From Candidatus Zhuqueibacterota bacterium (GTDB lineage Bacteria; SM23-31), in the NCBI GenBank assembly GCA_022562855.1, contig JADFON010000135.1, forward strand, positions 1-5,866: a stretch of 5,866 bases of DNA, read 5' to 3'. Each line of letters begins with the position of its first letter. The stretch's first letter is position 1. Shown in pieces: positions 155 through 5,866 of this stretch. The translations under genes and the position numbers were made by a program. The notes under the pieces were generated by a model. It was given only the letters and a program-made list of their open reading frames with translations. It was not told the origin of the DNA and did not search any database.

Positions 155-1543
155 TTACCCGTCTTGAAGGGCGTTGTTGATTTCGACGATCGCTTTGCGG
201 CCGTCCCCGAAAAACATCAAGGTATTATCCGCAGCAAAAAGAGGATTCGGTATGCCTGCGAAACCGGGACTAAGGCTTCGTTTTATCACGACAACGGTTC
301 TTGCTTTGTCAACGTCGATTATTGGCATACCCGCAATAGGCGAGCTTGGGTCTGTCCTGGCAACAGGATTGACAACGTCGTTAGCGCCAACGACTATAGC
401 AACATCCGTTTGATCCAGGGTGGGATTTATAGCATCCATTTCTTTTAATTTCTCATAAGGAATGTCTGCTTCTGCAAGCAGAACGTTCATGTGACCGGGC
501 ATTCTTCCTGCCACGGGGTGGATGGCATATTCAATTTCAACCCCTTTGGATTCGAGGAGATTTGCAAAATCCCGGACAGCGTGCTGTGCCTGCGAAACCG
601 CCATCCCGTAACCCGGTACAATTACGACTCTCTGAACGCCGTCCAGGAGCATCGCTATTTCGTCAGCGTTTGTCGATTTGATTTTGCCTTCATAAATATC
701 GTCCGCTTTTGTTTTTTCCCCGGCAACAACCGAAAATTTGGCAAATAGGACATTAATGAGAGATCTGTTCATCGCAACGCACATGATCTTCGAAAGAATG
801 ATACCCGAAGCACCCACCAAAGAACCGGCTATGATCAAACCGTTATTATTCAATACAAATCCTGTTGCGGCTGCAGCAATCCCGGAATATGAATTCAAAA
901 GCGAAACGACAACCGGCATGTCGGCGCCGCCAATCGGAATAACAAGAAGAACTCCGAGAAAGGATGCGACTATCACAAGATACCAATACATGTTTGTATT
1001 GAGTGGATCCGAAACAATCATGTAACCAATCACCATAGCGGCTGAAACGAGTAGAATGTTTATTATGTGACGCGCAGGTATAAGCGTTTGACCACCGGAA
1101 ATAAAACCTTGAAGTTTTCCGAATGCAATAAAGCTTCCCCAGAATGTAACCGAACCGATAATACCCGAGGCAACGGTCGCAACATTAAGCTGTGTCGATC
1201 CCATACCGCCAGCCTCGATAAGAGCCGCTCCCGCGACAAGAAGTGATGCTGCGCCTCCAAATCCGTTGAACAACCCAACGAGCTGAGGCATAGCAGTCAT
1301 GGCGATCTTTACGGCAAAAACGCCGCCAATCAAGCCCCCGAGAATAATGCCGGCTAATATTATTTCAAAACTGATTATTTTCTTGTCCATAAGGGTAACT
1401 ACAATGGCTATAAACATTCCAAGCGCACCGATCTTGTTACCGCGAACCGCCGTACGCGGATGCGCAAGACCCTTTAATCCGATAATAAAGAGAACGGATG
1501 CGAGCAGATAGGCAAGTATGATTAACGCTTCGGTGCCGGTCAT
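155..1543 (-). CDS. pntB: NAD(P) transhydrogenase subunit beta (PntB)
   Basis: Beta subunit of the inner-membrane proton-translocating transhydrogenase, which transfers hydride from NADH to NADP+ as protons enter the cell. It is 462 aa, the usual family length. Residues 1-265 are hydrophobic, with about eight or nine membrane segments (domain II). They include IGGADMPVVVSLLNSYSG (204-221), whose Asp208 and Asn217 match polar residues of the proton path. Residues 300-462 are domain III, the NADP(H) site: GYGMAVSQAQ (311-320), HPVAGRMPGHMNVLLAEA (342-359), VGANDVVNP (385-393), SPIAGMP (401-407) and KRSLSPGFAGIPNPLF (421-436). The position of E. coli beta His91 is Asn93 here (LFNGF). The start overlaps the pntA2 stop as ATGA, with AGGGG five bases upstream. 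Identity is essentially certain. Confidence 0.97.
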   Translation of the reverse strand: MTGTEALIILAYLLASVLFIIGLKGLAHPRTAVRGNKIGALGMFIAIVVTLMDKKIISFEIILAGIILGGLIGGVFAVKIAMTAMPQLVGLFNGFGGAASLLVAGAALIEAGGMGSTQLNVATVASGIIGSVTFWGSFIAFGKLQGFISGGQTLIPARHIINILLVSAAMVIGYMIVSDPLNTNMYWYLVIVASFLGVLLVIPIGGADMPVVVSLLNSYSGIAAAATGFVLNNNGLIIAGSLVGASGIILSKIMCVAMNRSLINVLFAKFSVVAGEKTKADDIYEGKIKSTNADEIAMLLDGVQRVVIVPGYGMAVSQAQHAVRDFANLLESKGVEIEYAIHPVAGRMPGHMNVLLAEADIPYEKLKEMDAINPTLDQTDVAIVVGANDVVNPVARTDPSSPIAGMPIIDVDKARTVVVIKRSLSPGFAGIPNPLFAADNTLMFFGDGRKAIVEINNALQDG

Positions 1544-1821
1544 TTTTTCCCCTGGAACATTTTTAGCATACGGTGTGTCACGAGAAATCCCCCGACAACA
1601 TTTACCGTAGCGAACACAACAGCAGAAAATCCAAGTATCGTGGTAAGTGTGGAATACTGGGCGCCTGCCGATAAAACGGCGCCTATAATCGTGATTCCTG
1701 AAATCGCATTTGAACCCGACATCAAAGGAGTATGAAGCGTAGGCGGGACTTTTGTAATTACTTCAAACCCGATAAAAATTGCCAATACAAATGTGGTAAG
1801 TCCTATTACAAAGGTTTCCAT
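1540..1821 (-). CDS. pntAB: NAD(P) transhydrogenase alpha subunit, membrane part (PntA2)
   Basis: A 93-aa membrane protein equal to the C-terminal membrane part of E. coli PntA, here a separate gene as in Rhodospirillum and Thermus. Hydrophobic stretches lie at about residues 3-20, 40-55 and 60-83. The family signature is KVPPTLHTPLMSGSNAISGI (residues 24-43), matching the LHTPLMSxTNAISGI pattern of E. coli PntA. His30 within it is a candidate proton-path residue. The protein ends in a short basic tail (GKK). It pairs with PntB to form the proton channel. The start at 1821 shares one base with the pntA1 stop (TGATG), and its own stop overlaps the pntB start by four bases. No good ribosome-binding site precedes it, so translation is probably coupled to pntA1. 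Members of this family vary in N-terminal length, and this is a compact one. Confidence 0.95.
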   Translation of the reverse strand: METFVIGLTTFVLAIFIGFEVITKVPPTLHTPLMSGSNAISGITIIGAVLSAGAQYSTLTTILGFSAVVFATVNVVGGFLVTHRMLKMFQGKK

Positions 1822-3005
1822 CAGGAACCATCACTTTCTTTCGTGGTTTTTGTGGGTAAACCGAGCAAATCGCGAATTCTCTCATGCACAACTTCACCCT
1901 CGTTAGTAACGAGAGTTTCACGGGTTATTTCATCTTCCATGTCGAGATTCAGTTCACCTTCTTTAACAAGATGAAGCAGAAAGGTCGTGATATTTTTTGA
2001 ATACATCTGGCTTGCATGATATGGAACGGTTGCCGGTAGATTCGTGGGTCCAATTATTGACACACCGTTATGGACAACGGTTTTGTCTGCTTGCGTAAGT
2101 TCGCAGTTTCCGCCGCGTTCTGCCGCAAGATCGATAACCACAGAACCTGAATCCATCCCTTCTACCATCTTTGTTGTGACTAAAATCGGGGCTTTTTTAC
2201 CTGGAATTGCCGCAGTCGTTATAACGACATCGCTTTCGGCAATCACTCTTTCCATCATTTCCTGCTGTTTTTTGATAAACTCCTCACCCATTTCCCTGGC
2301 GTACCCGCCTTTATCTTCCGCATCCTGGGTTTCAAGCTCTAATTCCATAAACTTTGCGCCGAGACTTTCAACCTGCTCTTTCACGGCAGGACGAACATCG
2401 TAAGCAAATACAACTGCCCCCAGTTTTCTGGATGAAGCTATTGCCTGTAGACCGGCGACACCTGCCCCAATCACAAATACGTGAGCAGGCGCTATAGTTC
2501 CAGCAGCAGTCATCATCATTGGAAACATTTTTGGTAGAGTTTCGGCGGCAAGCAGGACTGCTTTATAACCCGCAATGGTTGCCATCGAAGAGAGCGAGTC
2601 CATACTCTGCGCACGGGTTATTCGCGGCATCAATTCCATCGAAAAAAGCCGCACATTTTTCCTGGCAAGCTCTTGAGAAGCGTCAAGCTCCGATAACGGT
2701 TCTGAATAACCGATAATCACCTGACCCGGCTTCATAAACTCAAGATCGGATTTACCGTTTTCAGGATTAGCTCCTAATGCTCGTACTTGCAGGATAACAT
2801 CACTTTTAGAAAATATTTCAGAACGGTTTTGCAGGATTTCGGCGTCTTTATTACTGTATAGGGGATCTGGAAAGCCCGCCTCTAATCCGGCGCCTGATTC
2901 AACGACAACCTTTAGTCCGGCTTTTGTAAGAGACGGGATATGGTCTGGTATGATGGATACGCGCCGCTCTCCGGGATAAGTCTCTTTAGTAACTCCGACG
3001 ATCAT
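1821..3005 (-). CDS. pntAA: NAD(P) transhydrogenase alpha subunit, NAD(H)-binding part (PntA1)
   Basis: Cytoplasmic domain I of the transhydrogenase, which binds NAD(H) and passes hydride to domain III of PntB. It is 394 aa, near the usual size for the split form. The N-terminus MIVGVTKETYPGERRVSIIP is typical of the alanine dehydrogenase/PntA family. The catalytic loop PRITRAQSMDSLSSMA (127-142) carries Arg128, Gln133, Asp136 and Ser139, matching the Arg127/Gln132/Asp135/Ser138 set known in R. rubrum. The Rossmann motif is GAGVAG (180-185), with Asp203 (AYDVRP) at the end of the second strand, as expected for NAD rather than NADP. DLAAERGGNCE (292-302) is also conserved. The last 45 or so residues are a charged linker replacing the fusion to the membrane part. 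An in-frame TGA three codons upstream fixes the ATG at 3005. No ribosome-binding site lies at the normal distance; see the leader entry. Confidence 0.97.
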   Translation of the reverse strand: MIVGVTKETYPGERRVSIIPDHIPSLTKAGLKVVVESGAGLEAGFPDPLYSNKDAEILQNRSEIFSKSDVILQVRALGANPENGKSDLEFMKPGQVIIGYSEPLSELDASQELARKNVRLFSMELMPRITRAQSMDSLSSMATIAGYKAVLLAAETLPKMFPMMMTAAGTIAPAHVFVIGAGVAGLQAIASSRKLGAVVFAYDVRPAVKEQVESLGAKFMELELETQDAEDKGGYAREMGEEFIKKQQEMMERVIAESDVVITTAAIPGKKAPILVTTKMVEGMDSGSVVIDLAAERGGNCELTQADKTVVHNGVSIIGPTNLPATVPYHASQMYSKNITTFLLHLVKEGELNLDMEDEITRETLVTNEGEVVHERIRDLLGLPTKTTKESDGS

Positions 3006-3204: not shown

Positions 3205-3281
3205 AGTCGCTAAACAGAGACAATCAATTGTTGAAAATTTGACACATCGTATTCAATTTAACCAATCTGATGACACTTAAC

Positions 3282-3286
3282 GGGAG
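3282..3286 (+). promoter_or_regulatory. Ribosome-binding site of the serine hydrolase
   Basis: GGGAG ends seven bases before the ATG at 3294. This favours 3294 over the in-frame ATG at 3270, which has no such site and would place the ribosome-binding sequence inside the gene. Confidence 0.8.
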
Positions 3287-3293
3287 AATAAAA

Positions 3294-4742
3294 ATGTGCA
3301 ATGTAATAATCAGGTTTGCCATCGGTCTTGCTGTCAGCATAGCATTTTTAACAGGAAATTTTTCAACAGCGATTGCTTACCAGGCGTATACACATACCTC
3401 ACTTACTGATAAGGTAGATAATCTTTTCAGCGAATGGGATACTATGGACTCTCCCGGTGCGGCGCTTGGGATTTTCAAAGACGGGAGAATTATCTATGCA
3501 CGCGGATACGGTATGGCAAATCTCGAATTTGATATCCCGATTACCCCGCAAACTGTCTTTCGTATTGGTTCTGTGTCAAAACAGTTTACCGCAATGTGCA
3601 TAGCGATTCTTGCCGACAGGGGAACCATCTCTCTCGATGACGATATACGCAAGTATTTACCCGAAATGTATGATTATGACTCCAGGGTAACGATCAGGCA
3701 TATGCTGCATCATACAAGCGGCATGAGACCCTATACAACGCTCATGGGGCTTGTAGGATACGGAGGCGTATCGGCATACACAGCAGTTGAAGCGTACGAA
3801 ATGCTTGCCCGGCAGAAAGGATTACTTTTTGAACCGGGGGAACGATATGCTTACTCCAATTCTGCATATTTCCTCCTTGCGGAGATTGTTGGAAGAGTAT
3901 CTGGTATGAAAACAAGCGAATTCGCAAAGCAAAATATTTTTGAACCGCTGGGCATGAATAATACCCATTATCACGATGATGTCAATATGATCACAAAAAG
4001 CAGGGCGTCAGGATACTCTCCTTTGCAACAGGGCGGTTTTAGAATCAACATGACTCAAATCGATATGATCGGAGACGGCAGTATCTACACGACGATAGAG
4101 GATTTCTTGAAGTGGAACCAAAATTATATTGATAATAAACTTGGCGCCGGGGGGCAAAAGATTCTCGACATGGTGTTTACCGAAGGTGTGCTAAATGATG
4201 GAAGCAAGAATGGATATGGATTCGGTTTACGTCTTACCGAAAACCGTGGACTGCGAACCATTGGTCACGGTGGTTCGTGGGCAGGCTTCAGGGCAAATTT
4301 CATCCAGTATCCGGAGCAGAAGTTGTCAATTGTAATTCTTGCGAATTCCAGTTCGTTCAATCCGGGAAGAATCTCCAATAGTATCGCAAATCTATATCTT
4401 GCCGATCTGTTTACAGAACCGGCGGCTCAGCCCGGGGAAAGAAGACCTCGGGCGGGAAATCGAACTTCTTCTGAAACCATAACATTGCGATCGTCTCAGC
4501 TAAACGAATTAATCGGTATCTATTATAGCGATGAACTGGATGTCTTTGCAACGGTTACTATGGCTGGCGACAAATTAGTCATGAAACTCGGAAAGACGGA
4601 AAACAACCTTCTTCCGTCTTCGCCGGAAAATTTTGCATGGGGTGGTAGAAACAGAGTTGCGTTTGATATTGGAAATAGAAATGAAAAGAATTTTACAATG
4701 TTAGTATCGGGAATGAATCTTAAATTCGAAAAAATCAATTAG
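3294..4742 (+). CDS. Exported serine hydrolase, class C beta-lactamase/CubicO (peptidase S12-like) family
   Basis: From the ATG at 3294 the protein is 482 aa. Residues 1-28 form a signal peptide: Arg7, a hydrophobic core, and a likely cut after STAIA (Ala28), so it acts in the periplasm or outside. Residues about 40-375 are the serine beta-lactamase/DD-peptidase fold. The nucleophile motif is SVSK (Ser93, Lys96), the second motif YSN (187-189), and the third HGG (325-327, in place of KTG). HHTSGM (139-144) and FEPLGM (216-221) are typical of this family. A polar Pro/Arg-rich linker (about 376-398) leads to a beta-rich C-terminal domain (400-482) that starts LIGIYYSDELDV, common in CubicO-like hydrolases. 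The set fits a D-aminopeptidase, DD-peptidase or esterase; the substrate cannot be read from the sequence. True beta-lactamase activity is less likely. It probably shares a transcript with the next gene, 36 bases on. Confidence 0.92.
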   Translation: MCNVIIRFAIGLAVSIAFLTGNFSTAIAYQAYTHTSLTDKVDNLFSEWDTMDSPGAALGIFKDGRIIYARGYGMANLEFDIPITPQTVFRIGSVSKQFTAMCIAILADRGTISLDDDIRKYLPEMYDYDSRVTIRHMLHHTSGMRPYTTLMGLVGYGGVSAYTAVEAYEMLARQKGLLFEPGERYAYSNSAYFLLAEIVGRVSGMKTSEFAKQNIFEPLGMNNTHYHDDVNMITKSRASGYSPLQQGGFRINMTQIDMIGDGSIYTTIEDFLKWNQNYIDNKLGAGGQKILDMVFTEGVLNDGSKNGYGFGLRLTENRGLRTIGHGGSWAGFRANFIQYPEQKLSIVILANSSSFNPGRISNSIANLYLADLFTEPAAQPGERRPRAGNRTSSETITLRSSQLNELIGIYYSDELDVFATVTMAGDKLVMKLGKTENNLLPSSPENFAWGGRNRVAFDIGNRNEKNFTMLVSGMNLKFEKIN

Positions 4743-4778: not shown

Positions 4779-5866
4779 ATGCGAAAATTATCGATATTAT
4801 CAAGCATACTGGTATTGCTTGTCGCATGCGCGACACCTGCCGACTATGATGTAATTATCCGTAACGGCGTCATATATGACGGTACAGGAAACGCCCCATA
4901 TATTGGAAATATCGGCATTACCGGGGATAAAATTGCAGCCATAGGCAATTTGGAGACTGCGACCGGCGGAGTTGAAATAGACGCGGAAGGAATGGCGGTT
5001 TCACCGGGTTTTATCAATATGCTGAGTTGGGCAACTACCTCATTGATAGAGGACGGCAATTCCCAAAGTGATATCCGCCAGGGTGTTACTCTCGAGGTTT
5101 TTGGTGAAGGTGGCTCAAGTGGTCCTTTGAATGATGAAATGAAGAAGGAGAACATTAAGCAACAGGGAGACATAAAATACGATATAAACTGGACGACATT
5201 GGGTGAGTATCTCGAATTTCTTGAGAACAGGGGAATTTCCACGAATGTAGCCTCTTTTGTAGGGGCGACTACGGTAAGAATTCACGAAATCGGCTATGAA
5301 GACCGCCCTCCGACCACGGATGAGCTGGAAAATATGAAAAACTTAGTCCGAAGGGGGATGGAAGAGGGAGCGCTTGGAGTCGGTTCTTCTTTGATCTATG
5401 CGCCGGCGTTTTATGCGAAAACGGACGAATTAATCGAACTTGCGAAAGCTGCGGCGGAATATGATGGTATGTATATTTCGCATATCCGGAGCGAGGCAAA
5501 CCGGCTGCTGGAAGCAGTCGATGAACTGATAACGATAGCCGGGGAAGCGGACATCAGGGCAGAGATTTATCACTTCAAGGCTGCCGGCAGGGATAATTGG
5601 GGGAAACTTGATCAGGCAATTGCAAAGGTACAGGAAGCAAGGGAAGACGGTCTCCAAATAACGGCGGATATGTACACCTATACCGCCGGTTCAACGGGTC
5701 TTGATGCAGCAATGCCGCCATGGGTGCAGGAAGGTGGTCTGGATTCCTGGATAGAGAGGCTGAGCAACCCGGAGACAAAACTGAGGGTCATGAGAGAAAT
5801 GAAAACTCCGACTGACGAGTGGGAGAACCTCTACCTGATGGCAGGAGCCGAAAATACACTGCTTGT
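4779..5866 (+). CDS. N-acyl-D-amino-acid deacylase-like amidohydrolase lipoprotein, 3' end missing
   Basis: The first 362 codons are visible. Residues 1-17 are a lipoprotein signal with lipobox LVAC (Cys17), so the protein is exported and lipid-anchored. The body belongs to the D-aminoacylase branch of the amidohydrolases: DVIIRNGVIYDGTG (24-37), a small beta domain, VSPGFI (74-79), GVTLEVFGEG (102-111), then the barrel with GALGVGSSLIYAP (197-209), YISHIRSE (232-239) and IYHFKAAG (263-270). His235 and His265 match the metal-binding histidines H220 and H250 of Alcaligenes D-aminoacylase. The usual HxH after PGFID is absent: residues 80-84 read NMLSW. The GNCG cysteine ligand is also missing (GEGG, 109-112). 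The late catalytic Asp lies outside the window. The A-rich stretch before the ATG has no ribosome-binding site; the lipoprotein signal supports the start. It follows the exported serine hydrolase in a likely two-gene operon. Confidence 0.88.
   Translation, partial: MRKLSILSSILVLLVACATPADYDVIIRNGVIYDGTGNAPYIGNIGITGDKIAAIGNLETATGGVEIDAEGMAVSPGFINMLSWATTSLIEDGNSQSDIRQGVTLEVFGEGGSSGPLNDEMKKENIKQQGDIKYDINWTTLGEYLEFLENRGISTNVASFVGATTVRIHEIGYEDRPPTTDELENMKNLVRRGMEEGALGVGSSLIYAPAFYAKTDELIELAKAAAEYDGMYISHIRSEANRLLEAVDELITIAGEADIRAEIYHFKAAGRDNWGKLDQAIAKVQEAREDGLQITADMYTYTAGSTGLDAAMPPWVQEGGLDSWIERLSNPETKLRVMREMKTPTDEWENLYLMAGAENTLL

Follow-up and report, generated by a model that had tools for sequence, protein, structure and literature searches.

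An NMLSW/GEG subfamily of predicted envelope amidohydrolases that has lost the HxH pair and the cysteine ligand of D-aminoacylases

The window analysed here is a whole contig of 5,866 nucleotides (JADFON010000135.1) from the Candidatus Zhuqueibacterota bacterium assembly GCA_022562855.1. Its right end carries the truncated gene of an amidohydrolase-fold lipoprotein in which both the HxH pair and the metal-binding cysteine of D-aminoacylases are replaced. Judged by its sequence, this gene is a member of a conserved subfamily, recognised by its NMLSW and GEG motifs, inside a larger branch in which the cysteine has been lost and a glutamate (Glu110) has been fixed. We think that it is probably not a decayed gene but one of an unstudied branch of enzymes in which the metal site has been rebuilt. 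Such genes are widespread under names such as “amidohydrolase family protein” and “D-aminoacylase,” although residues essential in the nearest tested enzyme are missing from them.

Translation of 4779-5864 (+) gives MRKLSILSSILVLLVACATPADYDV...VSPGFINMLSWATT...QGVTLEVFGEGGSSGPL. The reading frame has no stop codon and leaves the 5866-base contig at its right end; the beta-8 half, which would include the catalytic Asp, is therefore missing from the window. The first-pass annotation had located NMLSW at residues 80-84 and GEGG at 109-112 and had described His235 and His265 as kept, all of which is borne out by translation and alignment. NMLSW (bases 5016-5030) is part of PGFINMLSW, which stands where D-aminoacylases have PGFIDxHxH, and H67 and H69 (HTH) of Alcaligenes D-aminoacylase align to L82 and W84 of the window protein. 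The D-aminoacylase motif corresponding to GEGG is GNCG; in the profile alignment, Cys96 has no counterpart, its column being a gap immediately behind Glu110, and Glu110 is opposite the Asn preceding the Cys. The nearest solved relatives by sequence are D-aminoacylase (1m7j/1rjp), PpOngB (9kb1), D-acylase (9g5m), and N-acyl-D-glutamate deacylase (3gip). The alignment with characterised D-aminoacylases that the first-pass annotation had proposed turned up none in the PDB set with NMLSW/GEG.

Pfam and NCBIfam scans of the truncated window protein placed no family above its cut-off. The fragment scores 19.3 against PF07969 (Amidohydro_3), below the cut-off of 29.7, while L033, a full-length relative that is 72% identical to the window protein and also its nearest relative, scores 54.1. 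The AlphaFold model of full-length L033, built with an alignment of 50, has a predicted local distance difference test (pLDDT) score of 95.6 and a predicted template modelling (pTM) score of 0.93. It matches D-aminoacylase-type PDB entries (3gip, 9g5m, 1m7j, 9kb3) at Z 54.8-55.8, with 3gip the best (Z 55.8, root-mean-square deviation 1.8) and dihydroorotase next at Z 34; Foldseek agrees. In the model, Glu110 is two residues past strand 103-108 and L82-W84 are directly past strand 78-80, so both sites are at the strand ends where relatives carry the Cys and the HxH. Based on the L033 profile score and model, the protein belongs to the amidohydrolase superfamily and PF07969, with a TIM barrel and a small beta domain.

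The altered motifs are shared widely. In one bacterial genome scan, relatives at 56-69% identity came from Bacteroidota, Ignavibacteria, Verrucomicrobia, KSB1, Gemmatimonadota, Planctomycetota, Hydrogenedentes, and Chlorobiota, all with NMLSW or NILSW. The NMLSW + GEG subfamily spans at least eight phyla, and an NMLSW gene is also present on a complete Croceicoccus (Alphaproteobacteria) plasmid. At a threshold of E <= 1e-120, which also lets through the further types with the Glu and a small number with Cys or Asp, 52 of 395 genomes in the phylum sample of Algoriphagus and 91 of 297 in that of an Acidobacteria genome have a match. N80, L82, S83, W84, G109, E110, G111, H235, R237, E239, H265, and K267 are invariant in an alignment of 24 sequences (A1). 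We also aligned 191 proteins, collected by similarity to the query, so counts from this set describe the branch and not all amidohydrolases; 97 share the L82/W84/Glu110 combination with the window, which makes the combination more than chance. The proposal that this is an uncharacterised subfamily and not a one-off has thus held up, with ~100 homologues from many phyla on a single tree branch. A literature search on the motif itself found no paper, and searches on metal-free or HxH-less D-aminoacylases found nothing on the NMLSW/GEG group.

This distribution also settles whether the motifs could reflect decay or a sequencing artefact. The contig does come from a fragmented assembly of 80% completeness, and its end truncates the gene, but the same motifs occur in ~100 independent genomes, including isolates such as Algoriphagus and the complete Croceicoccus plasmid; we consider this explanation refuted. 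The genome of the window also has HxH-bearing paralogues of GQDG, GNCG, and SDG types (G000 contigs C225, C444, C205), and its NMLSW gene therefore does not simply stand in for the standard type. In the Bacteroidota sample, the NMLSW gene is found in tandem with an Asp-type (GQDG, HxH) paralogue at L080, L084, L086, L087, L088, and L104.

The rest of the active site is retained. PpOngB requires Cys97, His222, and His252 (zinc) as well as Asp368, each of which, when changed to alanine, leaves the enzyme with little or no activity, and its Tyr194, Lys254, Tyr285, Arg379, and other residues hold the amide and alpha-carboxylate (PMC12017989). By alignment, His222 and His252 map to H235 and H265 of L033, Tyr194 to Y207, Lys254 to K267, Tyr285 to Y299, Asp368 to D430, and Arg379 to R448. 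These seven residues are present in 97 of 97 members of the NMLSW group and are nearly or fully invariant elsewhere; His235 and His265 occur in 191/191 aligned proteins, across which the catalytic Asp (Asp430 of L033; Asp366 in D-aminoacylase) is invariant as well. Among the mapped active-site residues, only the HxH and the Cys are missing in the NMLSW group. The OngB-specific Ser292 is replaced by Thr306, the same as in D-aminoacylases. Between the window and L033, few substitutions change the protein (pN 0.18) beside saturated silent sites (pS 0.76), which indicates that the gene is under constraint. Together with the homologues in many phyla, this agrees with the earlier judgement that the gene is not decaying.

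A conserved protein may nevertheless be a catalytically dead relative that serves as an envelope binding protein or scaffold. Three catalytic or ligand residues are gone here, and CRMPs, which are pseudoenzymes of the amidohydrolase fold, turn up in the fold search. However, the catalytic Asp and both metal His, whose loss would mark a pseudoenzyme, are all retained; like all of the mapped substrate anchors, they do not vary among the 97 NMLSW proteins, at identities down to ~51% and across phyla. A new charged residue is fixed beside the old ligand position, and the scarcity of protein-changing substitutions also argues for an active protein. We therefore think a dead relative improbable.

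Combinations at the two sites form a graded series. Besides the 97 proteins with Leu/Trp + Glu, there are 34 with Leu/Gln + Glu (mostly from the Acidobacteria sample) and smaller Glu classes with Leu/His (5), Gln/His (5), Met/Gln (3), Met/Trp (2), and His/His (4); the remainder have His/His + Cys (21) or His/His + Asp (19), and the first site is missing from one fragment. Glu110 is found in all 146 HxH-less proteins, while Cys or Asp at the second site always accompanies HxH (40/40). The first-pass annotation had suggested Glu106 or Glu110 as a replacement for the cysteine. This series favours Glu110; we set Glu106 aside, since 16 of the 40 Cys- or Asp-type relatives have it too.

In trees built with both motifs taken out of the alignment, all Glu proteins fall on one side of a single branch, with Shimodaira-Hasegawa-like approximate likelihood ratio test (SH-aLRT) support of 93 (116 rows) and 98 (76 rows). 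A tree uniting all HxH-less proteins fits no worse than the unconstrained tree (approximately unbiased test, p-AU 0.80). Four Glu-carriers retain HxH (L036, L037, L137, L138). These results fit, but do not prove, one Cys-to-Glu change and then one HxH loss, with the four proteins branching off between; because these four still have HxH, the Cys-to-Glu change probably came first. On the tree, Cys and Asp were swapped repeatedly at the ligand position among HxH-bearing relatives, so a carboxylate seems to be tolerated there. Asp takes the place of the Cys ligand (GQDG, GPDG, NPDG) in 19 of the 40 Cys/Asp-type relatives (e.g., L002, L030, L043, L055, L060, L104), through several changes on the tree, and these proteins may represent another ligand variant yet to be characterised.

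Comparison with known systems shows where the subfamily departs from them. AfDAN (Alcaligenes faecalis D-aminoacylase; 1m7j, 1rjp) has the same fold (Z 55.5 over 467 residues, 32% identity), beta-5 and beta-6 metal His, beta-8 Asp, and Lys/Tyr/Arg anchors, but it has HxH (H67, H69) and metal-binding Cys96, whereas the subfamily has Leu/Trp for HxH, lacks the Cys, and carries its fixed Glu at the position just before it. BbDam (Bordetella bronchiseptica N-acyl-D-glutamate deacylase, 3gip), tied as the best structural match, has the same anchors and a Thr at the OngB Ser292 position; it is a subtype V D-aminoacylase with conserved Cys/His/His ligands (PMC12017989), while the subfamily is without HxH and Cys. 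PpOngB (GlcNAc1A deacetylase; 9kb1) shares the fold, the two metal His, the catalytic Asp, and the amide and carboxylate anchors, but it needs Cys97, His68, and His70 (PMC12017989), none of which the subfamily has, and the subfamily has Thr, not Ser, at the 292 position. Thus, the subfamily combines the beta-5/beta-6 His, beta-8 Asp (in L033), and alpha-carboxylate and amide anchors of subtype V with the absence of the beta-1 HxH (Leu82/Trp84, 97/97) and of the Cys after beta-2. With two defining features lacking, it should not be classed among the subtype V D-aminoacylases, though it may well function like one.

A different departure from HxH is seen in NagA, which has its Glu ligand on a different strand. 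E. coli and V. cholerae NagA have QxN for HxH and one metal, a precedent in the superfamily for HxH loss with a single-metal site kept (PMC6016474); unlike our subfamily, NagA belongs to another family, subtype IV with Glu/His/His (PMC12017989), and acts on a sugar phosphate. Metal-dependent bile salt hydrolases were set aside as a comparison, as they retain HxH and a carboxylated lysine (PMC13081902).

We see about an even chance that the window gene encodes a secreted lipoprotein amidohydrolase for N-acyl-D-amino acids or D-residue peptides, with one metal and with Glu110 replacing the Cys. The single metal would be at the former beta site, bound by His235, His265, and the Glu110 carboxylate in the cysteine's place, and the beta-8 Asp (Asp430 in L033) would be the general base/acid on the metal-bound water. 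Catalysis would proceed without the HxH pair, which adjoins the beta-8 Asp in known D-aminoacylases. The substrate would be either an N-acyl amino acid (probably D-) that bears an alpha-carboxylate or a short D-residue peptide, of which the amide is hydrolysed, and the role would be scavenging of D-amino acids or peptidoglycan-derived peptides in the periplasm. The Cys/Asp interchange in HxH-bearing relatives and the QxN mononuclear NagA make this account plausible. It builds on the changed motifs and their fixation, the retained residues, the predicted fold, the single branch, and the D-residue partner genes and fusions described below, from which the metal, its Glu110 ligand, and the substrate class are inferred.

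Several observations weigh against this account. The main one is that changing His68 or His70 of the PpOngB HxH to alanine abolishes activity and that the Cys mutant has little or none (PMC12017989); since PpOngB needs all three of the lost residues, the same mechanism is not obviously compatible with their absence. Glu110 is aligned to the Asn before the Cys, not to the Cys itself. In addition, a serine hydrolase partner gene (PF00144, described below) occurs at a minority of loci, and other neighbours differ widely among lineages.

The loss of residues essential in PpOngB could instead point to an enzyme that is still hydrolytic and metal-dependent but has shifted its chemistry or substrate (to an ester, lactone, or other carboxylate-bearing compound), with Glu110 as a general acid/base and not a ligand. 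Beyond Glu110, the Glu branch differs from the rest at residue 264, immediately before His265 (Tyr/Trp/Phe for Ser/Thr), and at residue 163 (Ala for His/Gln), and PpOngB itself is the same fold moved to a non-amino-acid substrate (PMC12017989). Such a shift is an unlikely though appreciable alternative, as the fusion partners are D-residue peptide enzymes, penicillin-binding-type serine hydrolases, or a second amidohydrolase. Still less probable is a metal-free hydrolase, in which Asp and His would activate water directly and Trp84 and Glu110 would fill the old metal site. The second position of the HxH pair holds a fixed Trp, and the superfamily has a metal-independent class (PMC12017989), but this gives no reason why both metal His are retained without exception, and LH, QH, LQ, and HH forms without the Trp exist on the same Glu branch; we consider it quite improbable.

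Extending the Glu110-ligand account to the whole Glu branch is more tentative, and we rate it somewhat below an even chance. The branch would then be a sizeable group of envelope amidohydrolases, so far unrecognised and with a Glu/His/His + Asp metal site of a new type without HxH or Cys, which arose by Cys-to-Glu and then HxH loss and acts as dipeptidases or deacylases on D-residue peptides. If active, these proteins would exemplify a metalloenzyme that swapped a Cys ligand for Glu and then dropped HxH, the recognition motif of the superfamily, and they would provide a new recycling route for D-amino acids, which are plentiful in bacterial remains but hard to digest. Surviving intermediates (HxH + Glu, QxH + Glu, LxH + Glu) make the path testable stepwise.

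Table 1. Features of the window on the amidohydrolase gene and its upstream neighbour.
Feature	Position	Strand	Basis or remark
PF00144 serine hydrolase (penicillin-binding/D-aminopeptidase-like)	3270..4742	+	36 bases upstream of the window gene, same strand
Truncated amidohydrolase-fold lipoprotein gene, NMLSW/GEG subfamily	4779..5864	+	362 codons up to contig end
Signal peptide and lipobox (LLVAC), predicted envelope lipoprotein	4779..4830	+	Sequence; lipobox in most relatives
PGFINMLSW, end of beta-1; Leu82/Trp84 stand for HxH	5004..5030	+	Translation, alignments with relatives
GEGG right behind beta-2; Glu110, a candidate metal ligand in place of the lost Cys	5103..5114	+	Alignments
His235, beta-5 metal ligand, retained	5481..5483	+	His220 of Alcaligenes, His222 of PpOngB
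His265, beta-6 metal ligand, retained; Lys267, alpha-carboxylate anchor, retained	5571..5579	+	His250/His252; Lys254 of PpOngB

The gene upstream of the amidohydrolase (Table 1) encodes a secreted PF00144 protein with an apparent SxxK motif (SVSK) and a YSN motif; its best NCBIfam match, D-aminopeptidase, is below the cut-off. L033 also follows a PF00144 gene, with a wider gap than in the window. Apart from the window, seven NMLSW loci (L033, L203, L077, L082, L093, L099, L132) have an adjacent PF00144 gene on the same strand, and PF00144 is fused in three Glu-branch lineages, compared with 0 of 39 Cys/Asp-type loci. This comparison was limited to loci with enough flank, and with flanks unequal, the enrichment on the Glu branch (Fisher p 0.03) is only suggestive.

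Fusions join Glu-branch members to an M19 membrane dipeptidase (L020), an S13 D-Ala-D-Ala carboxypeptidase (L029), and PF00144 (L207, L211). In L210 (1103-5377, -), a single open reading frame combines a Glu-branch amidohydrolase, a PF00144 serine hydrolase, and an M15 D-Ala-D-Ala dipeptidase, and L208 and L209 each carry an NMLSW protein fused with another amidohydrolase. Some high-GC Acidobacteriota genes (L204-L206) have apparent N-terminal fusions, which were left uncounted, as they start in read-through-like sequence.

On the Croceicoccus marinus plasmid (L203, 1-7656), a TonB receptor, DUF1611, an uncharacterised (apparently membrane) protein, PF00144, and the NMLSW gene stand in a row, with 4-base overlaps among the three middle genes. 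This operon-like row is a candidate D-amino-acid scavenging cassette. A DUF1611 gene also precedes L036; DgcN, a protein of D-glutamate catabolism, is among the DUF1611 proteins. At L019, there is an overlap with a gene that has alanine-racemase-N and D-serine-dehydratase domains. In the window itself, three genes at 155-3005 (-) look by eye like a proton-translocating NAD(P) transhydrogenase operon (PntA in two pieces, PntB), and they are divergent from the serine hydrolase and amidohydrolase genes.
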